Source: Liolophura sinensis (lineage: Eukaryota; Mollusca; Polyplacophora; Chitonida; Chitonidae). From it: a DNA stretch of 64,000 nt. Under the pieces are notes generated by a model. It ran no database searches and had not been told where the DNA came from. It saw only the letters and a program-made list of their open reading frames with translations. Position 1 is the first letter of the stretch; each line of letters opens with the position of its first letter. Position numbers and translations under genes: made by a program. The stretch is from positions 56,742,512 to 56,806,511 of the forward strand of contig NC_088301.1 of the NCBI RefSeq assembly GCF_032854445.1, written 5' to 3'. Positions 6,301 to 36,210 of this stretch are shown here, in pieces.

Positions 6301-9300
6301 GTGACATGTCCTCGCTAAATATTTTCCAGGGGTATTATTTTCTGTGAATGATATTTTCCCCATGAAGACATCTTTTTCAGCTGTTGCTGGTTTTGGTGTG
6401 GCTTAAATCAAGCACTTAATCAGCGTATGTACTGCATATTACCTCTTCCTACCAACTGTGTTATTGCATCTACTAATGATCGTCTACATGTGATCCATAC
6501 ATATGTGTATCCTTTTTTTCCATTTCTTGGTTATTCCGATAATGAAATTTCCAAATAAACTCGATACATGTATGTAAGTAATTTTCTCAATACACTTATC
6601 TCATGTTGGCTTCTCCTTTAGTTGTAATGTGTCAAGGCCTGCCATCAACATGAAGATGGTCTTGGGTTTGCTCCGGGGAAGTGAAATGTTCAAGAGTACA
6701 ACCTAAAACACCAATGAAATAAATAAATTGATACATAAATCATTACAGCACTCATGTAATTCATTTCTCCAACAGACTGTGATCAAAATTTATAATTTTT
6801 ACACTAATGAACAAGTTTTGATCAACCCACTTCGAGACAAGCGGCCAATTGCTAAACCACAAAAGCCAGAGAGGGAGTTGTGAGTATAGAAATTATTTAT
6901 TTGTCAAGCACCAAATATTAATTTTTCTTACTTAGTCCAAGTTGCTTATGAGAACAGGCCAAGAAACTGTGGCATAAAATCCGATATTATCTGTGCATGC
7001 AAAAGTGGGATTGAAAGAAAGTTGCTGTATNNNNNNNNNNNNNNNNNNNNNNNNNNNNNNNNNNNNNNNNNNNNNNNNNNNNNNNNNNNNNNNNNNNNNN
7101 NNNNNNNNNNNNNNNNNNNNNNNNNNNNNNNNNNNNNNNNNNNNNNNNNNNNNNNNNNNNNNNNNNNNNNNNNNNNNNNNNNNNNNNNNNNNNNNNNNNN
7201 NNNNNNNNNNNNNNNNNNNNNNNNNNNNNNTAGGCAATAATCTTTTGTTGGTGCTCAATATGGCAATTCCCGCAGTCTAATAATTTGTTGAAGACCACTT
7301 GTCTAGCACCAATATGGAGTATATGTCCGTATGTCTGTACGTCACATGAAAATTTAACAGTAACTTGCCAAGGGTTGGTGATTAATCAGGTACTTTTTTC
7401 CCCCCACCCATGAAACTGAAATATCAATCTCATCTGTGAAGGTTTTGCAATTCAGAATCGTTAATTAAGTTCCGAAATTGAACAGGCCTTATAACTTTTT
7501 CAAACTTCAGAATCATTTTAACATTATAAATAGAACAGTTCACTGATATAGCCCATTTAATATTCAAAAACAACAAAGTAATGTGCAACAAATATTTCGA
7601 GACCTGCTTTTGTAGTGCACAGCTTTAAAATACTGAGAACTTCCAGGTTAGTAAATGCATGTGAACAGATCTGTGTTTCTGAAAGCCTAAGCTCAGAAGG
7701 ATGAAACAGATCAGAGATTTGGCAGAAACCAAAGACAACAATCTTCTACAAGAACATAAGTCAGTGTTTGTTGTTTCATTGTCAGATTCACTGCTCAAGA
7801 TCACTTTACACGACTTGAGTCTGAGCATTCTGTGTCTGCCTCAAATACGTTTAAGTGGGATAAGTGGGCATGGATTGATCTTGACCAAACAGCATCATCC
7901 TCTCAACTGGAATGAAGAACAGTTCATGGATCTCATGAAGACAGCCATGAAATGGTACATATACCAGTTATGTAACTGTTAAGCGATTGCTATGTTTGTT
8001 ATTACTTTCAGAAGAAAAAAAAAAAACAACATAAAAAAAGTGAAATAAAGAAGGGATTCTAAACATGAGTTGTTGGCTGTTAGGATATTAAGTATTCATT
8101 TTAATTATTCTTTTTATTGTCTTTAGGGTTCCAAGCTCGAAATATTAAAATTCTTTTCAGACAGTGTGTTGTTAGATACGTGACAGTTTGGCTGTTGCAC
8201 AGTTACACAGTGTCATTTTGCAAACTGCTCTGTACTGAAGCAGAAGCTTGTAAGGGGTGAAACTGGAGGCATAGTGATAGTAGAACATGTTGATTTGAAC
8301 TACCATGTCATCTCTTGTCTTTTAAAATCTGAACTGTCATGGCAGTGGTGATCAAGATAATCTGCAATCGTTCTGTGTCATGGTTTCCTGCTCATTTTGG
8401 GCTATATGTGAACGTATACTTTGTTTACATCAGAATATCTTAATTCCGACCAGTTTATAAGTTAGTTTGAAACATATTGTCTGATATTGACTTCTTTTAC
8501 TTATGTGACAAGTTGTATAAATTATGCCATGTCTGTGTATCCTGTTGAAAGCATTTATATGATTGCTCATATATAGTTACTGTAAATCTTTTTAACCTCT
8601 AAAGCACTTTTTGTCTGTGGACTTTATGCATACAATTATTATGAAAATGACCCCCAAAATGGTTTGTTTGTGTCACTAAAGATGCAAGCTTCAAAAAACT
8701 GAAAAGATTTTTTCTCTACAGCCCATAGTTCTCCCACTAATATAAAGTTTCAAAATGTTGATATCAGTGGTGTGATTGTTCATGTATAATTTATATGATG
8801 TGAGTGCTCGTGTATGGTCTGTATGAGTGCTCATGTATGGTCTGTATGAGTGCTCATGTAAGGTCTGTATGAGTGCTCAAGTAAGGTCTGTTTGAGTGCT
8901 CATGTACGGTCTGTATGAGTGCTCATGTAAGGTTTGTATGAGTGCTCATGTATGGTCTGTATGAGTGCTCATGTAAGGCCTGTATGAATGCTCATGTAAG
9001 GTCTGTATGAGTGCTCATGTACGGGTCTGTATGAGTGCTCATGTAAGGTCTGTATGAGTGCTCATGTAAGGTCTGTATGAGTGCTCATGTATGGTCTGTA
9101 TGAGTGCTCATGTATTGTTTGTATGAGTGCTCATGTATGGTCTGTATGAGTGCTCATGTAAGGTCTGTATGAGTGGCTCATGTATGGTCTGTATGAGTGC
9201 TCATGTATTGTTTGTATGAGTGCTCATGTATAGTCTGTATGAGTGCTCATGTAAGGTCTGTATGAGTGCTCATGTATGGTCTGTATCGGTCTGTATGAGT

Positions 9301-19910: not shown

Positions 19911-22900
19911 CTATTTCTTCTTCTTGCCCTTTTTCCCCTTCTTCCCGCTCTTCTTGCCTTTGCCGCCTTTACCTCCCTTGCCACCGTCATCCTCATCCCC
20001 AGCAGCTGCCTTGGCCCTTTTCTTACCCAGAGGTGTTTTCTTGTACCACTCCTTCAGAGATTAAAACATTGTTGCAACATTTATTATATGCACTAGCTAT
20101 GGATAGGATTTGTTCAAATCTACACTGTTCTCATGGGTATGTATTGCAGTAGACCCAGTGGGGCACTTGTAAAACTCCTTCCTATCTGTAACAAAACAGT
20201 CCAAAGTATAAACCCTTCTTTTGTGTTCTTTTGTTGTGTCACAATTATCAGTGTATGTATGCTCATAAAACACTTATGCAGTATACAAGCACTATGCGTA
20301 CAATGTATTCTGCTGCGCTTGGGATCTGTTGTATAGCTTTTGCCTTTGTATGGGGTCATCCATGCTGTGCAACACCGACAAAGTTAAACAGTTCTGTACA
20401 TGGTGTGAACTTAGCGCGTGCTCAGTTTGATACACGATATGATATCTCTTTCTCGCAGAAAAAAAGTGAAGGTCAAAGGATCATTTACTCTTTTATGTTA
20501 GCATGCAGAGCATAACAAGTTATAAGGTGTGGAAAACAGGTATCTAACTCACTGTAAAAGCCTCCTCTTCCTCCTTGTATATGGGGTCAATCCTAGCTAG
20601 AGGAGAGATGAACTCCACTGCTTGGAGAGGCTTTTTGGATAGAGTCTGAATGCGGCGGTCAGTGAGGACCTGATGGATAGCAGTCACCATGTGGCCAGGT
20701 GTGTAGCCCTCGGTCACTTTGGACAGGGAGCTAATGTCCAGTGTTGGACCCAGGACACCACCATGTTTGGTGATCATACGTCGCCACAGCACTAGAAAAT
20801 TAGAAACATTCATGAATAAACGTATCAATTTTACTTACTTCACTTCATACAGGCAACAAAATTTAATGTAATTGTAAGAACTACTTGTAAGTTTGATTGG
20901 CAAGTTCCAAGAATCTAATAGGTACAAGTACATCTCTGTTGAAGATATATTAGGACATTTTTGATTGTTACATTTGAGAAAAATTTGAATATGTAAAAAA
21001 CTTCTGTAAGAGATTTAACCTTTGCTGTGGTGAAATAAGCAACCTCAATGTTTTAAGCCCTTATTTGGTCACAGTAGCTGACAATATCAAAATGAATCAG
21101 CTTATCTGATAAATATGAACCAGTTTAGAACTAGTAGATCCCAACATAGGAATCAATGAAATGGACTTACAATGTCTGGTAGCGTAGTCTGGTCTTGGAA
21201 CTAAAATTATTTTTTGATAGCATGTTGTCAGGGGTTTCATATCTGCCTCAAATGGACATCTTGAGGTCCCAATTAGCATAATTCTGTCTTCTGGTTTGAT
21301 GGTTTTCAAAGCTTTAGGCAGTTCCTTTTTCAACCTCTTTGGGTCAGTCTGAATTGAAAAATAAGCCACTGTTACAGTACCTATAGTAGCAAAATTATAT
21401 TTTCTAAATCCAAAAGTCTCCCAGATTCAAACTGCATTATCTATCATAAATTTGACTACATTATTATATTTTTAATCCTTGTGACTGAGAGGGCTGGAAA
21501 CCATTACAAGCAATGGTTTTAATGAAATTGCTCTCTATATCCTGGTCTCTTCTTTTATGTATCAGCAAAAATGCTGTTTATTAATTTTTTGTTTCAGCTT
21601 ATGTGACTTACTGGGTCAGTTTTTGGTATCTTCTTCTTAAACATTTTTTCACATTCTCCAACGTAGAACACTGTGGGCTGCAAGGCTCTTCCCACCTGAG
21701 AGTAAAAACGCGTACATTTTAACAGACTAACAGATTAACAGACATTGTCCTGTGTGTAGCTATCAATTCATCTTTTGGCATGTATTATACCTGTATTAAA
21801 ACCTCCCTACCTGAGGCCTGGGTAGAGACCTCTACTGCCAAGAAAAGTGGCAGAGGTTGCTAATGAGATTAATGAGCCTCAACATGTAGGTATGGTTTAA
21901 AGCAGGTGAGAGAAATGATGGGCTATGCATGAAGTCCAGGTGTGTGTTGTAATATGTGATACTTGAAGACAACCAACCATGCATGATGATGACCTTATGG
22001 AAACAAATTTATCAGTGGTTCATCATAATGACAAAAGGCTAACTTTGGGGACACAAGGTTTCAATCAAGTGCCATCTCTGTCAGGGTGGGCGTGCATAAC
22101 AGAAAATCCGTGTTAGTAACAGTACCTTGAAAATAAGATGCATAAGCATTTTGAGTCCATCTTTGCCAGGGTACTTTTCGACAAGGTTGGTAGCTGACAG
22201 ATCTATGAGGTTGGCTCCCACTTCGCTGCAGATGGCCTCAACAAGCATCCTTTTTCCAGTGCCGCGTGGGCCAGCAATTAGCATGGATTTGATCAGGGGA
22301 GCTCTCTCGTGGACAGCAGGGGACCCTAACCAGGAAGACAGATCCAGACATAAACAAGACTGGAGACAGTGGAGCCTTAAGTATTATGTATGTACACACA
22401 CTGCTTTTAAAATAGAAGACAGGCTACATTTTAACAACTAAATGTAGCAAACACAAGGAAGCCAGGGTCTGTTTTGTAAAGTGTAAGTAGCATTACATGC
22501 AACTGCCACCACAATGTAATACTTTGATCTGGTACTGGGTGTCATGGTAGTTATTTGCACAGCACATACACTTTGTGATTGTACACTAAAGAGAAAATAT
22601 TGGCTTATTACCGAGTGGAAGGATGGCAAACTCTGTGACAACCCTGCGAACATCACTGAGTGAAGGCATAGGTTCAATGCTGGCCTGTCTGAGTGTTGTA
22701 CCCAGGTAATTGTACTCTCCTTCGTAGTCTGAGAGGGAAAGTTTGTTGCAACGGACCAGGATGCCTTGGCTAACCAGTTCCTCGTACAAAGAGTCCATTG
22801 TTCTGAAAATTACAATTAAATGCAGACCATCAGCAAATTCTTAACATTGTAATCTACTTGTACTTTTTCTCCAAAGAGTGTTACCTTTTGGCACTCAATG

Positions 22901-25900
22901 ATATATCACCTAATAACGAAAGGAATTGACCATTAGCTAATGCTGCTGTTAGAGACAATCAGAAATACTATAGTAAACTTTGGGTGTTTTATTATTCCAG
23001 TTTGTCAGTAGATTACCTAATAAAGACTGGTGTGTAATCGAATCAATTTAAAGGAATATCTCTTATAACTATATGTATTCAGGCTTAACTGTTGACTCAT
23101 TATTTGGTCATGTGAGATATTTGTGTCAAAATAATTTAGTTCATTCGATCATCAAGGCAAAGAGAGATTTGGATAGGAAATCTATAAGTGACCAGTCAGG
23201 TATGACAATAACATACCTGTCAGGTGTGAGGTCTTTCTCCTTCTTTCCTTTCTTTCCCTTCTTTTTACCACTCTTCTTCTTCCCCTTCTTCTTCTTCCCA
23301 GACTTCTTTCCTTTCTTTCCCTTGTCTCGATCTACAGCCTGTCACACATTAAATGACATCACTGATATTATGTATGGTATGTTGCAAAGTATAATCATTT
23401 CTTTAAAATGAATTACTTGATAATGCAAATAAAATAAAATCAACTTACCATTTTCAAGTTTTTCAGCTCTTGCCTCATCAGCTCATCCACCTGTAAACGC
23501 ACTTCTTCCTCGACTTCTTTACGCTTTTGCTCTTTTATTAACTCAGAATCATGCTTTTGAGCAAAGTTCTCAGTTTCATCCCTGGGCTCCCACACACCTG
23601 TTGATGTAATACAATGAAACCTGTTAATCATGTAATAAAACTACTCCGTGTTCCTTAATATACACATAAAAATGTATACATCATTAGTTTAATATGGGAA
23701 TACGAGAGATTACAATCCATGAGGAGTAGTCCCCAGGATGTCTAAAGTGCTCTGTCTTGGATCCACTTAGAGAGGTACATGTATAATAATAAATATTTTA
23801 CAGCATTAATACTTGCCTTTGTATTCCTTGGTGGCTTCATCAACAGCTGGCACAAAATTGGAGGGTGCCATTTTCCATCCTTCCTCTTCCTCCTGCATAA
23901 AGGAATAAGTATAAATTCAGGATCACAATTACTCAATGCTCGACAAAGTTCTTAAACTGAAAGCAATTCATTAAATCCACCAACAACTTTACCAACATTT
24001 CCACTCCCCAGAATGTACTAGACATAAGTGTACTGCATCTTCTTAGCAATATTTTATGATTTGGCTGTCTGCTTCAGAGTACCTTAAACTACACACTTAC
24101 CTCATCATCTTTTCCTTTGCCCTTCTTTCCTTTTTTATCTTTCTTATCTTTCTTCTTGTCTTTTTTATCCTTTTTGTCCTTTTTGCCTTTGCCTTTGTCT
24201 TCTGCCTGTATATTAGAAAAAGAGAGTGAAATGAATGAATGAATGATTATGGCTTAATGCCACATCGCAGTCAATAATCAAATGGTACGGCATGTAGGCA
24301 GTTGCTCACTGTTTTCAAATAAGGATATTAAAAATTGCTATTAGAGAGAAAAGTGTTTTTAAGAAAAAAAATCAAAAATAAAATATTTAATGTACTTTAT
24401 TACAGATCTTGGTAAAAAGGTGTACAATTATAAAATATGAAAAACTGACCAACATAATCTGTAAACAACTCCTATGTAGGTCAGGTTTTCATTTGTAAAT
24501 TAACAATAGTGATTTACTTTTGCTTTCATTTCTTCTTCCAACTCTGCTGGATCTTTCTCTTTAAAAATTAGAGCTGATCCACCATCATCTTCATCTGGGT
24601 ACTCCGGAAATTTACCTGTGGCATCTCTAGGTAATTGAAAAAAAAAAAGCCAACAACTTATTTTTTGAAGCCATGGATGGCAATCAGCGATATAATCATA
24701 AATGTTCACTAATGTAGAAGGATTGTAACATGTGGAGGGGAAAGCATGAGACAGTGTAGATACTGTACATGTTAAAACAACAAATTTGACTAAATATATA
24801 GCTAACACGACTAAAAAAAACATTTCGAGTGAAGAAAGGTAAAAAAATGAATAAACAAATAAACACTGGGGAATCCAACCTGCACTCTATGAACCATTGC
24901 CTAATCTGATCCTGCATGGTTTCTTTCATGTCTGGTCCCTCCGTCTCCCGGATCTTATCCTTGATGGTTTCCAAGGCCTGCTGGTATTCCTGCTCATGCA
25001 TATCCTGGGTGATTCTCCTCTGATTCTCTGTCTTCACTGCCAATGCCTGTGGGGTGTTCTTCTGGTGTGTGGGTAACGGAGGTGGGAACTGTAATCATAC
25101 ACAAACCATGGAGATTGCTGCAGTTATAGATCAAGTGATCACAAGTGTGGAACTGACTATCTTTCCCGGCTGTGGAACTGACAATCCTCCCCTGGTTTGG
25201 AACTGACAATCTTACCCAGGTGCTGAACTGACAATCTTCCACAGGCATAGAACTGACCATCTTCCACAAATGCGGCATGTATTTTTATTTCCACCATAAA
25301 TGTACATCTCTGAATAAGTCACAATGTTTAATTGTTTACATGTGTAAATGAACCATTCAAATCTAATCAATGAGATTTTATCATAAATCAAGGTAACATA
25401 ACACATATATACATGTCTGTGAGAAATCCGTGCATTATGTACATGTAGGTTTGTGGAGTAATAGAAATTACCATGCCAATGAAGACCATCTCATCTTCTC
25501 TTTCTCGTTTTGTTCTGCGTCTCTGTGAAAACCCCTTCCAAACCTTGAGTCAATGCAAAAAAAAAGATGATCATCTTGGATAACTCGAAAAGCTGATCGT
25601 CATTATGATAATATAACAAAATCATAAACACTTTCATATTAAAATAAAGCCTTGAAAATTTTCTGAAATGTCTGTTTTATGTGTGTTTATATAGTGTATA
25701 AATAAAACTTTCCAGCAGCTACATGTACTGATATGTACAGAAATACCTTTATGTGAAATCTTGAAAAATTATTTTTGTTAATACATGTTATATGACCAGC
25801 AATTTAAACAAAGAAAATCCTTTATAGTGAGCTTTGTAGCTGTGTTCCAACCTTCTGAATTCGTATGGCAGCAACATCTGGATCAAGAGTTGGTGCACCC

Positions 25901-28582
25901 TGAGTGGCAGCCTGTCTCTCACGCTCTTCTTGTTGTCGAATGTCCTTCATAAATTTGGCACGGAGTCTACCTTGCCTGGCCCTTTCATGCACTTGGATCA
26001 TATGGATGGCCTCTTCTACAGACATTTTCATTTCATTTTTCTCCTAAAACTCACAAGCATAGTTCATCAGAGTACATCACTTTAAAAGAAAACAAATAAT
26101 ATAACCTCAGCTATTCAGGAAGAGAGGTGGAAACAGACCTAATCAGCCCCAGTCATTTCTGGCGGAGGTGCTTGGTAACTCAATAAATCAGTTATTAACC
26201 TGACATTACCGTAATATGGCAGTGCTTTTGATTTTCTCAATGTGATCAATTTTTGCTTCCTCTGAACTGTGATATCTCAGTTATGCAACACCACAAGGCC
26301 ATTAAGCTATGCTTTTTAAACTTCATGTGGGAGTTTTTATCGATGTATATATACACTTAGTCAGGTGTAAAGCAATTTTAAACTTAAGAATGTGTACCAA
26401 CACATGACATCATCATGGCTGTTAATGTGGTATATATGCCTTATGTAGAGTCCATCATCAAACACATGTAACATTGCATAATAACTTACTGTTTCTTTTT
26501 CTTTGGGTCCCATTTTGGCCAGAATTTGGCCAAGAACTTTCTCTCTCTCCTTCAGAGCTTTGGCTCTCTCATTGGTGAAGTATTTTGGGATTGGCATTTC
26601 TACATCATTCTGGAAAGGGGAGTTATTAATTAGCAATAACAAATGGTATGTTTGTGGACATGCATTATCTTGCAAGTTTATCACATTGCATGCACTAATG
26701 TTTAAATGGCAAAAATGAGCCCTAAGTGTCCACAGTTTACTTTTATTGATATTAGTCTTGCTTTTAGAGTACATTGTACATGTACTTTTAAGTTCCCATC
26801 TTACTTAAAATTGACAAGTGCCATGCAAATATGGTTGTTACTGTGAGTACAACACAACTATGAAAAGCGTTTCTTTGAGAGGAAAAAGACTTAAAAAAAA
26901 ATGAATGTATGTATCCAAAAATCATACATCCAACACTTGTATTACTACAAGTACATCAATGTTGTTAACATAAGGCTTATTCACAACATGACCAACTTAC
27001 AGGTGTCAACTTCAGATCAGACAGGACATCATCAAAGTAATGAAACTCTGAAAATTCAAGGTTGACCATTTCATGTTTTATCTCCAAAATTCTTCCCATT
27101 GTGCCATCCAAACAGTGACGAAGAATACGTCTCTTTTGTGGGTGAACAATCTGATCATAGCACTGTTCCAGTTTTCGGAAAATCTGTATATATTTAATAT
27201 ACATTGTTGCTAGAAGCTGAAATGCTGCCATACGATCCTGAGGAATAAAGGAAAAAAATTAAACGAAATAATATAAATACAAAGTTCGAAGTACATTTTT
27301 TATTATTTAAAATTTTTTTTATCGTGTGAAAAGGTCAAATGTTAACTAGAAAGATCAATTGGTGATACATTTACAATAATATTGTAAGTAAATACAAACC
27401 TTCTCTGGCTTTGGAGGCTCTGCAGGCATTTCTTGCACAAGCAGGTCGGCAATAGCTGCCTGGGCCTCCGTCCATTGTCGGCCATAAGTACTGAAGAAAA
27501 AATGTAAAGTACACCTTTATTCGTTTATGGAAAACAAACAATAACAAATAATTCTTAAATCAATTTTGGGTACCAAGCCTTAAAACAAGCATGTAGCAGG
27601 ACAGGGACAATGTGCCTCTTGTATGAAATAGTATCGTGACAGTAACCAACTGTTTGGTACAGGACAAAACTGCCATGTAAATAACATTATAACTTTTTAA
27701 TGAAATGGATAGCTGGAAAATTTTCCCCACATCATCTTCATTATTTCAACTTTGCAGGCTTGAGTATGTACAGATGCACCATGACTGATGTAATTATAAA
27801 ACCCTTAAAAGCTAGGCATAGGTCAATTTGTGATAAGTAACTAGACAAAGTCAACCTAGTCATAACACTCATGTCAATAGGTTTTACAAAACCTTGCAAT
27901 CATGAGAAATCATCATCAACTGGGTGCAAGTTCGCTTAGATCCGGATACATAGCTGCTATGAGTCGCAAAAAAGTAGAACCGGATTATGTTCAACTCCAG
28001 CACAAATATCGATAATCGCAATCCTACGTAGGTTCACTAAATGCAGCATCCCATGCAATGCTCCCATTTGCTTTCAGATGTTCACTGTTCCCAGTCAGCA
28101 AAAACCCAGTTGCTCTCAGTTGCAAGGGTAATCTACTCCTGATTTAAACTTTTGTCAATAACAATTACAGAATTCATGACATTAAAAGCAACCGTTATTT
28201 TGTGTCATACTATGCGTCGTTAGGTTTAAAATTTTTTGCAAGTTTTTTGAAAGTTTTTGCACGTTCCAACTTCTAGTCCGTGCCATTGTCTTGAAACAAG
28301 ATAATGCCATATAATTAGAAAGGATTTAATTCGTGTATAGTCTCGACATGACCTATGTGTGTTTTAAGGATTATTTTGATGGGTTGGTTGTTGTACTGAG
28401 TAAAAAAAGTACAAACAAACATTCAAATACAAAACTGCACTTTTTCTGACAAATGCCACATCATGACACCATGGCTTAAACAAACCACGTGTGCTTGAAC
28501 CCAAATTGTTAATAACGAATTACAGATAAAAGGCATAAATGCATGTAGATACACAGTAAAAGTAAACAAACCTATGCGACAT
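19911..28582 (-). CDS. IQCA1: DRC11 / IQ and AAA domain protein 1 (IQCA1)
   Basis: Subunit of the nexin-dynein regulatory complex of motile cilia and flagella. Eighteen exons join in phase to 841 residues, close to the human length of about 820. Exons (5' to 3'): 28582-28572, 27490-27400, 27237-27001, 26609-26490, 26043-25852, 25543-25472, 25088-24880, 24626-24518, 24205-24101, 23892-23817, 23597-23449, 23338-23217, 22802-22612, 22325-22126, 21695-21612, 21348-21171, 20791-20553, 20051-19911. One IQ motif spans the 25852/25543 junction ([17 protein letters not shown]). The C-terminal AAA domain has GPRGTGKR in place of Walker A, VFYVGECE at Walker B, then LIGTSR, and PRPDYATRH as the arginine-bearing segment. 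Three Lys/Gly-rich tracts occur (exons 9, 12, 18). The intron after exon 10 starts with GC. The 11-nt first coding exon (MSH plus two bases) is the least certain; all other exons are strong. Confidence 0.95.
25146..25270. repeat. 25-bp degenerate tandem repeat
   Basis: Five copies of a unit beginning 'ggaactgacaatcttccc', with AACTGA at 25151, 25176, 25201, 25226 and 25251, exactly 25 bases apart. The copies are diverged elsewhere. It lies in the DRC11 intron just upstream, on the coding strand, of the exon starting at 25088. Confidence 0.9.
28265..28475 (+). repeat. dispersed repeat, copy 2
   Basis: Second copy of the element at 1490-1700, in the same orientation, sharing 'aattagaaaggatttaatt', 'tgggttggtt' and the terminal 'ATGCCACATC'-like end. 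It lies inside the first DRC11 intron, about 100 bases from the small first coding exon. Confidence 0.7.
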
Positions 28583-30503: not shown

Positions 30504-33500
30504 ATGAGTTTGCAGTGGACGTTCATAGCAGTGTTTCTTTACACTGAAATTGCTCTGGTCATATTGCTTCTTCTACCTTACATCTCTCCTACCAGGTAAC
30601 GTTTTTCAATAATCAGTCAATACCTGGTATTTTGTATTGTGTTTACTTTTATAATATCATTGTATTTACAATGAATTATGAGTATTTTGTATTTAATTTG
30701 CCATACCTTAATGAAATTGAATTACCGGTTATAAAAGGTTTTCCTCCCAAAAAACTTGTTCTTGTGGTATGTGTTTTTTTTTTTTTATTACATATTAAAT
30801 TACATTAAAGTTGTATGTAAAAGTTTTATAACATCAACGATTGGAAATTTGCAGATTTTTTAATATTTAATACACCTGTTTTAACTCTTATTTTCAATTA
30901 CAGATGGCAGAAGATCTTTCGTTCTCGTCTGTTGCAAAGTTTCACAGCATACGCCAATTTGTATTTTAGTGTGTTCATAATTGTCTTGCTTCTCTTGTTT
31001 GTAGGTATGTATTTTTTGCACGCATTTCATTCTTAACTGAAACATTGTCGTACAAATCTTTTATAATATTAGATAGAATTAATATTGGCTAAGGATAGTT
31101 TGTGTGTGTATCATATTTCGATTACAGTAAATGACCATAAGTTTCGTCCTCAGACTTGGAAAGTGTATCCCATGATTCATTGCATTGATCGTGGATGTCA
31201 CGGACTGGGCACAGCGGAAGAGCTTCGAGGGTTATCATGGACAGTTCCCAAATGTAATAAACAAGCTCACGCTTCACTGGGCAGCCATTCTATCCTCCAG
31301 CCCTCAACACTTCATGCTTTCTTCAGTTTTAATCATGATGAATTTAGTACATAAAGGCTAACATCACAAAAGGTGCACTTTGATTGTTTTATGATCGCCA
31401 TTTTTTTCATGAAAGGGAATTCGGGAGAAAAGTCTCTGGAGATTGAGCTTGAACACCCAGTACCTTTAGACATGTGGAGTGACATGTCAAATATCTGTTA
31501 ATTTACAGAGCTCTCCAGATACTAAGCTATAACAAAAGTTAGCACCCTACGAATCCTTACGTGCAAATTACCAGCAGATAATGTCAAACTGATGTTAAAC
31601 AACTTACAACAGGGCTCGAAATTTCCATATGTCTAATGTGTCAACAACACAGTTAAAACCAGTCTGACTCTTGATATGCTTGATTCGCACACAGTACTAC
31701 TAAAAAAGGGTTGAAGATAGTTGTGGTAGCTTTTGGAAACCAAGTTTTCAATGTCTAATGGGTGGGTTGTGTGGGGGGGGGGGGGATCTGATTTCAAAAG
31801 ATGAGAAAGGTAACTCTTCTGCAATAGAACAGTTACGATTGTAAGGAAACAAAATATGTGCATAGAGTGACATACTTTATTATAAGGGAGATTGATGACA
31901 GATATTTCTCAGTGAAAATTTTTGTACCTGAAATACATGTGTACTAATATGTGTGCATAATGAGGGCTCAGAATGGTAACCGTTTACAAGATATTGTGCA
32001 ACGTGACTTCCATGTTATCTGAACAATTGTTCGCTGTTTTGAGGCCTGCAGTGTACACTGTAGTATTTGTACTGGTATGACTATGGCTCGAGACAATGTT
32101 TGAAATTACAGGTTGTGATAGTCATCACCTGACTTTCTTCAGTGTAATTCATGGGTGTCATTCTAAATGGTTAGTTAGGAGATCTGCACACCTTGCTGTC
32201 AGCGACTTGTTGGCGCAGATTAGGGCCATAGCTGCCATGCAGGGTAATGAAATGGGTAGTGGGGCTAATCACTTTCTTGTGTCCATCTTGCCGCAAACTC
32301 GGCACATGCGAAAGTGGACAACAGAAACTGATGGGCGAAACTTTCTCACTTACCGTATGATTGAAATGATAAAATTCATTTACAACTCATATTTAGCCTG
32401 TGTCCTCATTTTTACTTAGTACAGTCACTGTATGATTACTACTGAAGATAAATGTTAAGTATTCAGTGGACCTTACCATGAATCATTTCAATATAGTGTA
32501 ACACATGATCAAGTATTTGTCATTACCAAACATGTTATGCTATCCTGTGTAAAGATACAAGACAGAATTTAACCAATTGCATTTTCATACCTCACAGATG
32601 CAATTAGAGAGGTGCGGAAGTATTCAGTTCCTCTAGAGGAAGTAGATGCAAGAAATAATCCCAATGCTGAGGGCAAAACCATCCACATGAAACTTTTCCG
32701 AGCCCAGAGGAATTTTTACATAGTTGGTTTCGCCCTGTTCTTTGGCTGTGAGTATCATATGCTATTTAGTGTATTATCTATGACGCTACATTGCGCCCAT
32801 ACCTTAAGTCTATGTTACGCACTGGTGAAAACCTAACCTTTCAGGTTTCCATGTCTCCATATTTCACCTAAAGTTAGGTGTGTAAATATTCCCTTTGTGA
32901 AGCTCATAAAGGCCTAAATACTATTGACTCCCACACTTAAGTTTTCTGCTAAGAAATTAGTCAAACTTTACAAAAAAAAACCTCTTACATGGCTCTATAT
33001 AAGGTGCGTGAATCAATCATAATCTAGCAAAATGTGTTGCGTGAAAAATGCCAAACTTTAGTGAAGTACAGTAGGTGTCGTTCTCTATCTTTTATATAAA
33101 ACAGAAAAATTAAAATTTCCCTTGGTCTTCGTGTTTGAGTAGAAGTTTTTGCCAAACAAACATTTTTAAGTAGGTTTACAAAGTAAGGTCTGTTGTCCAC
33201 CTCTCACCAGTTTCATGGGGTCACTTAATAAAATAGTTTATAGTTCAACTTTTGAATTTCTGTACAGAATGGAAAATGTCTAGCTGTATCTGAGGAGAAG
33301 GATTGAGCTTAAGCCATAAGGCTGATCTTAATGACAAAGGCTGTAAGCTTTCTGTTGGTTTATTTAGGGTTGTGAGGCGCCTTGTGGACACTGTTGTCTC
33401 GGCAAGGCCACTCTGCTCGCTGAGGGAGAAGCAGCAAGGAACAGGCCCAGGGAGCAACATTGGCAGCTCAACAGATGCTGGAGAAGAAGGAAAATAAGGT

Positions 33501-34644
33501 CAGAAAGCAGAAGCTGGTGTCTCAAAATCTTTTGTATCACCTTTATTTGTCCTTAGGAATATTACGTATTCACTGCAGATCCATGCATGTACGAGGATAT
33601 CCAAGGATCGTGTAGTGTCTGCATGACGATATACATGTAGATGATCAGTTGTGCATTGCTTCGTCGCGGTTCAGCCTTCTGTAACAACAATTTAGTCATC
33701 AGTGTTTGGTCAAGACTTTATGGAACAGTATGATTTTAACGCTGCCTGTAAGCAATGCATCATATTGTCAATCACTTCAATCCTTTTCCGGGAATATATG
33801 TGTTTTGGAATTACACAGAAGTGGAATGTATTACTAAGTCATCTCTTTGTAACAGGATAATAATGATTGAGGTGAATGCTGGAGAATTGCAGGAGGCTCT
33901 GGAGAAGACCAAAACCGAACTCCGTAAGACAAAGAAAGGTTTGTGTTAAAACACCAAGATCAACTAAATGGTGGATGTTTAATTCAAAAGAGTTTCTTCT
34001 GCAAGCTGAAGGATAATGTGTATGGTTTTACCTTTTTTTGTTTGTGCTTCTTTTTATCAGTTTTTCTCTGCATGTTATCCTAATATTGGATACAAAGTTT
34101 CTTGCTTCTGTTTATGTGTTGAAAGGAATGGAGTTTCCACACCATGTTCATGTACTTGTTTTATTTTAGAACTGGAGAGCACAAAGAATAACCTAGATGC
34201 CATGTTAAGCCAAGCTAAAGCCACAAACAAAGAGTATGACAGACTTCTGAAGGAGCATGAAGTCTTGCAGGTGAGTTGACATATCGTTTGCACATTGTAT
34301 CTTTCACTCCGTGGTTATTTACAAAATTAAAGAAACTGTGTTGTAGGGTAACATTGCAACAAGATACCATGAGTGGTTGTATGCATAGATGTATTGTGCC
34401 AGTAGCTGTGTTGCTTGGGTAGAAGATTCGGCTTCTAGTTTCTAATTTGTTTTTTCTTAATTGAGTGATTTAGGGGCTGTTGAATTCTTAGTTGCAGCAT
34501 ACAGTGTTTAATAAACTGGCAGACTGATGCTACCTGAATATTATTCCTTTCTGTTGTTGTAATTTACCTGTGATAAATGTTTTGTTTTTACAGAGGAAAC
34601 TAGCCCTCCAAGGTGGAGGAGATGAAACAAAGAAAGATTCTTAG
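30504..34644 (+). CDS. BCAP31: BAP31/BAP29-like ER membrane chaperone, frame-broken
   Basis: B-cell-receptor-associated protein family: an ER membrane protein involved in export and quality control of membrane cargo and in apoptosis signalling. Exons: 30504-30595, 30904-31004, 32598-32747, 33368-33498, 33856-33938, 34170-34270 and 34594-34644 (TAG). The N-terminus MSLQWTFIAVFLYTEIA starts TM1. TM2 is YFSVFIIVLLLLFVG and TM3 is FYIVGFALFFGW followed by VVRRLVD. A C-terminal coiled coil (LQEALEKTKTELRKTKK, NKEYDRLLKEHEVLQ) ends in KKDS, a dilysine ER-retrieval signal. The upstream 'cttttcag' at 30485 implies at least one 5' untranslated exon. Odd: exon 33368-33498 keeps the family sequence only by reading three frames in turn, and exon 33856-33938 has one apparent extra T, so no intact frame exists as written. 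BAP29 versus BAP31 is not separable here. Confidence 0.88.
31773..31785 (+). repeat. G homopolymer
   Basis: Run of 13 Gs in the intron between BAP31-like exons 2 and 3. Such runs are error-prone in sequencing. Confidence 0.9.
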
Positions 34645-35890
34645 AAAATCGCTGTTTTCTGATTTGAACAACTTTTCCTGTGATTTAATCTTGTCTTTGA
34701 ACTTCATATATGGTATTTGACATCTCTTGCCTCTGGAAGCATTGACTAAGGTTTAAGCACTTCATACTGTGAGATCTTTCTGTTTCATTTATACTAAACA
34801 CTCATGAAAATGTTGTTGATTGAAATTTGGGTGCTCTTTGTGTTAAATCTTAACATACTAGTACTGGGGTAATTAGTATAATTTTGTTTTAGTGATGTGT
34901 TTTATTATGATTTGTGTTTGGTTGATGGGAAAAGAGCTTGGCAAGCAGATACAGTAGCTGCATATTGAATCTGTGACAGCAGTATAGAATCAGAAGTACA
35001 AAAGTATTGTATGTGTGTCATCGTTATTTTTCTCATTTTGAAACCTTACTTGTGTTTTATCTTAATACAAGGTGATCTTTTCTTTTTGAGACTATCAAAA
35101 TTGAGAATTTGTGTTTTGATAACAATCATTGAAATATTTATTTCACCCTGTAATTTTATGTACTTTGACTTGTTTTATAAGTTTCAGGATTTTAATGTAA
35201 ATTCAGAACAGTGTTCTTAGATGCTAAGGCTGTGGTCAGCATAAAGTCTTGATTCCTTTTGGCATTGGTTGTTTTAGAAAGAGCCTGGTTTAGTTGGGGA
35301 TGCTAAGCTTAAATCAAGTTGGTGTCTTGCTCATTACTTGGAATCCCATGCTCATTACTTTGAATTCTATGGATAATTGTAGATAATGGGATATTAATCA
35401 TTTAGTGTAGGAGATGCATTCTACGAAGTTTGATATATACATGTATGTATGTGCACAGAGGTGTCTGGTACTTCTCATGTAGTACATGTGAATCACTCTA
35501 TGCTTTATAGTTATCTTCACATTATCAACAGGTCTTAAAAGAACCCACTAAGAAACAAGATAAAACTGCATCATAACATTGAATTTACCTGCATCCTTAA
35601 ATGTCTTCTGTATTAGATCTAAGATCACAGATGTAGTTATGTCTGCATCTGTATTTTGTTGTAGTAGTATGTTTGAGTTACAGTTTTACTGTTGAGAATA
35701 TTTATCGTATAAGAAAGGTATAGTATTTACAAGTACTACAACACCCTAGATATAATCACCATTACACGTACTGTATTTAAGTACTTGGCCTATGTTTTCA
35801 CTGACTTGCATGTTTCACTGTTTTACCGTCTCCTTTGATTGTATAGTGGATATTTGTGGCCTTTTATATCGTATGTACATTCAACCCTGT

Positions 35891-35896
35891 AATAAA
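35891..35896 (+). terminator. Candidate polyadenylation signal, BAP31-like gene
   Basis: AATAAA about 1.25 kb after the stop codon at 34644, followed by a T/GT-rich stretch ('ttctttgttgtttctgg') as expected downstream of a cleavage site. Confidence 0.5.
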
Positions 35897-35999
35897 TCAC
35901 TGCGTTCTACTTTATACTTATAAGTTCTTTGTTGTTTCTGGACCCATTCTCAGTTTAGTTGTCACTGGTTTGGTATAGCTCCATTCACTTGGAAAGGGC

Positions 36000-36210
36000 A
36001 TTTATAGCCAAGTGGTTAGCATGCTAATGCATGAAAAATGGCTCGAGCCTCTCACAAATGCTGCCACTGTCAGTTAAGTGTAGCTCTTTCTGGCTCTCCC
36101 TCATTCATAGGAAGGCCTATGAATGGTCATGGGTTTTCCCGGGAAACTGATTGGATTCCTCCCATCGTAATGCTGACTGTCGGCTTCAGATGAGACTTTA
36201 TGTATGGTAT
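36000..36210 (+). mobile_element. Type-1 SINE, diverged
   Basis: Has 'ccaagtggttagcatgctaa', 'gagcctctcacaaatgctgc', 'gaatggtcatgggttttccc' and 'tcctcccatcgtaatgctga' in the type-1 order. The tail is lost. It begins about 100 bases beyond the BAP31 polyadenylation signal. Confidence 0.8.

Follow-up and report, generated by a model that had tools for sequence, protein, structure and literature searches.

BAP31 is a membrane protein of the endoplasmic reticulum, and the known members of the family (BCAP31/BCAP29) are built as a transmembrane region followed by a coiled coil and a dilysine C-terminus, the KKXX form of which has a recognised role. A literature search for a chiton BAP31 found no paper. 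The gene analysed here lies on the plus strand of a 64,000-nucleotide stretch of Liolophura sinensis DNA (contig NC_088301.1, 56742512-56806511; the window, to which all positions refer) and has the same order of parts. Compared with known BAP31, however, the chiton gene as deposited is broken five times in exons 4 and 5; otherwise it presents nothing unusual. A second described system is relevant, namely the residual indel errors of unpolished, low-coverage long-read assemblies, with which the damaged patch shares clustered one-base indels between intact flanks.

The gene consists of seven coding exons separated by six introns with GT-AG ends and spans positions 30504 to 34644. Exon 1 (30504-30595) begins MSLQWTF, contains the first transmembrane stretch and gives a first-exon match to PF05529; it is intact, as are exon 2 (30904-31004), with GT-AG sites, and exon 3 (32598-32747), which runs from DAIREVRKY to FFG plus a final T and matches PF05529 at 54.3 bits. 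The breaks are confined to exon 4 (33368-33498) and exon 5 (33856-33938, EVNAGELQEALEKTKTELRKTKK). Exon 6 (34170-34270), reading from ELESTKNN to KEYDRLLKEHEVLQ, and exon 7 (34594-34644), ending in KKDS and a stop, are again intact. Exons 1-3 and 6-7 thus remain open and keep their phase as far as the KKDS at the C-terminus, in agreement with the earlier note, which had described the exons on either side of the damage as sound.

When the protein was translated with an X at each break, the breaks being placed as in the earlier note, it scored 138.6 bits against PF05529 (the Bap31/Bap29 transmembrane region; curated cut-off 22.7) and 39 bits against PF18035 (the C-terminal coiled coil; curated cut-off 30). 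The coiled coil, including exons 5 and 6, matches the solved structures of human BAP31 and BAP29, and the KKDS-stop that closes exon 7 supplies the dilysine end expected of a family member. A continuous frame across all exons is not present in the deposited sequence, where the first in-frame stop is a TGA at 33373-33375 and the protein would end after 116 residues. This failure of the frame concerns the intactness of the deposited copy and not its membership of the family.

The breaks were placed by a frame-tolerant alignment of exon 4, and then of exons 3-6, to human BCAP31, a single family member whose sequence agrees with the PDB sequence in its coiled-coil part. Exon 4 scored 91 in this alignment and 45 when no frame breaks were allowed, as against a maximum of 34 both in 400 random 131-mers from the window and in 300 codon shuffles of the exon, which bears out the original observation that this exon carries BAP31-family sequence in three frames. 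Five one-base breaks were found across exons 3-6: a loss near 33373, gains near 33387 and 33406, a loss near 33434, and a gain at 33865-33868. Frame penalties of 8, 10 and 12 returned these same five breaks, whereas penalties of 4 and 6 added further breaks elsewhere and a penalty of 15 left three. The fifth break recovers the apparent extra T reported at 33867-33868, by which exon 5 has 83 bases in place of the 82 expected. Frame breaks are thus truly present in the sequence as deposited.

Within exon 4 our placement differs from that of the earlier note, which had described three single-base losses, the first at 33368, and a net loss of one codon. Position 33368 is a splice junction, and it is intact: the T that ends exon 3 and the GG that opens exon 4 together encode W, so that WLVRRLV aligns with human FLLRRLV. 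The three-loss description also overlooked an in-frame LLSRQ block at about 33391-33405; once this is included the exon contains four breaks (-1, +1, +1, -1) with a net change of zero, and its length of 131 bases fits the flanking phases. The residues between the breaks, WLVRRLV.LLSRQ.TLLAE, match human FLLRRLVTLISQQATLLAS, and the peptide WLVRRLV.LLSRQ.TLLAEGEA aligns without gaps with human FLLRRLVTLISQQATLLASNEA. Against the Pfam Bap31 profile, the sequence read through five breaks scores 66.2 bits and extends to profile position 137/138, compared with 58.9 bits and position 126 for the version first proposed, and the earlier placement was set aside.

The damage is clustered. Five one-base indels of both signs fall in the 214 coding bases of exons 4 and 5, and the remaining 495 coding bases contain none; the probability that five events scattered at random over 709 coding bases would all land in these two exons is about 0.0025, a post hoc calculation. 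The breaks adjoin runs of two bases and span 33373-33868, or about 500 bases, while the widest interval consistent with the intact exons, from the end of exon 3 to the start of exon 6, would be 32748-34169. The length of the poor patch would therefore lie between about 500 bases and 1.42 kb. On the minus strand at 20547-27258 lies an IQCA1/DRC11 gene, 615 residues of which match the solved DRC11; no frame break was seen in these residues, a query of joined open exon pieces that shows open exons rather than every exon boundary. As a rough genome-wide control, two tables of dynein heavy-chain domains were inspected by eye and contained no exons split between adjacent frames. The patch therefore looks local and not typical of the assembly, and since such patches are uncommon here, an origin by error requires a locally poor read, which counts somewhat against it.

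The assembly, GCA_032854445.1, was published under the name L. japonica (PMC11068029), later corrected to L. sinensis (PMC12441733). It was built from 14x HiFi data from one SMRT cell, with a mean read length of 8,347 bases, by means of hifiasm at default settings, purge_dups and YaHS, and the published method describes neither polishing nor gap filling (PMC11068029). The lowest contig coverage was 0.96 (PMC11068029). The HiFi reads (SRX20411988), Omni-C reads (SRX21911526) and RNA-seq samples (SAMN35319765 to SAMN35319769) belonging to the assembly have been published (PMC11068029); the RNA was taken from a different individual. Spread over a heterozygous diploid, 14x would amount to about 7x per haplotype, a depth at which a Poisson model leaves some 3% of positions with two reads or fewer. 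One or two reads might then define the contig locally, hifiasm would have no other reads against which to correct them, and slips beside two-base runs would persist in the sequence if no later polishing took place. It is very probable that the frame breaks are consensus errors in a thinly covered patch of no more than 1.42 kb, and this is their likely origin. In support of consensus error, the downstream exons 6 and 7 are undamaged in frame, in splice sites and in the terminal KKDS. Residues typical of the family are also conserved between the breaks, and there is therefore no sign of the substitutions expected from neutral decay. On the other side, HiFi slips occur mostly in longer homopolymers, and the position of these breaks beside runs of two bases, a departure from the residual long-read indel errors to which the patch is otherwise similar, counts against error.

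Raw long reads have an error level above the roughly 2% of indels in this patch, where the family residues remain recognisable. Gap filling with raw long reads, suggested in the earlier note as a possible cause, is thus not borne out, the patch being too clean for such reads and the published method describing no such step.

The mitochondrial contigs of the same assembly were considered as a gauge of its error rate. In one contig of 108,685 bases (C99), mitochondrial DNA is repeated head to tail in at least seven laps (L015-L020, L022). Around COX1, six of its laps share the same 15 differences from a second mitochondrial contig (C632); in one lap, 8 bases of COX1 are missing. Over 4,341 bases, 15 substitutions separate the two contigs (L021 in C632, L015-L020 in C99), though the DNA reportedly came from one individual. 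The concatemer was set aside as a gauge, since near COX1 there is hardly any difference between its laps, as is expected at high depth.

Of the explanations that take the broken frame as biological, the one that survives best is that in the sequenced animal one allele of the only BAP31 gene had recently become null and that purge_dups dropped the intact haplotype. Heterozygosity is 1.24% and a single haplotype was kept (PMC11068029), and one null allele of BAP31 would be viable if it were recessive. Against this stand five separate one-base events within about 500 bases, with none elsewhere in the gene, and the absence of visible loss among the family residues. Natural decay mixes longer indels with substitutions and extends across the whole gene; here, contrary to what a decayed allele or unitary pseudogene would show, all five breaks lie in exons 4 and 5. 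We regard this explanation as unlikely, and in its explicit form, a genuine null allele of the only BAP31 gene produced by five clustered one-base changes in about 500 bases, as quite unlikely. The earlier note had left the choice between poor consensus and a decayed allele open. The former is much the better supported, because slips of both signs are clustered beside two-base runs, the flanking exons are intact, the gene is single-copy and the assembly rests on 14x HiFi data with no described polishing; the decayed allele is the less likely of the two.

It is very improbable that the deposited gene is a true pseudogene whose intact counterpart is absent from the assembly. The assembly does have 1,110 gaps and 2.0% missing BUSCOs (PMC11068029), in which an intact copy could be missing. 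However, the seven exons and six introns are all present with their splice sites, so this is not a processed copy, for which loss of the GT-AG introns would be expected, and the five undamaged exons look conserved. Protein, Pfam family and DNA searches, in which only the best candidates were scored, found neither a second BAP31 copy nor a haplotig in the assembly, gapped as it is; the second intact copy for which the earlier note had proposed a genome search was thus not found. The DNA of 33200-34300 matches itself alone, and weak additional protein matches (E 0.55 and above) were attributed to chance. The flanking stretches 31000-33400 and 34100-36100 match elsewhere only as dispersed repeats. 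One of these, of about 1.2 kb, occupies 31123-32358 in intron 2 and has many genome copies at roughly 64-82% identity; another, of about 85 bases, lies at 35990-36100 and has at least 39 copies among the matches listed, at 74-88% identity. Elsewhere in the window, a run of 200 N at 7031-7230 is presumably a scaffolding gap.

It is scarcely credible that programmed frameshifting, very short introns or some other unusual splicing restores the correct reading. To bridge the four breaks of exon 4, either introns some dozen bases long or four frameshifting events within 70 bases would be needed, and the frame obtained by plain splicing runs into stops within the shifted stretches. The AG at 33838-33839, from which a frame would run open into exon 5 (SSLCNRIIMI-EVNAGEL), would spare only the fifth break; its pyrimidine tract is the weaker one, and its use would bring hydrophobic residues into the linker. 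Because that AG would open the frame into exon 5, the fifth break is nonetheless the least certain of the five.

Very probably, then, the chiton has an ordinary, functional, single-copy BAP31 gene at this locus, with five single-base consensus errors in the deposited sequence, and the broken frame is no biological novelty. The patch provides a site at which to test how frequent such patches are in a 14x unpolished HiFi assembly. For annotation, proteins predicted at this locus would be truncated or would lack exons 4 and 5, and there is a risk that chitons could be mistakenly recorded as having lost BAP31.
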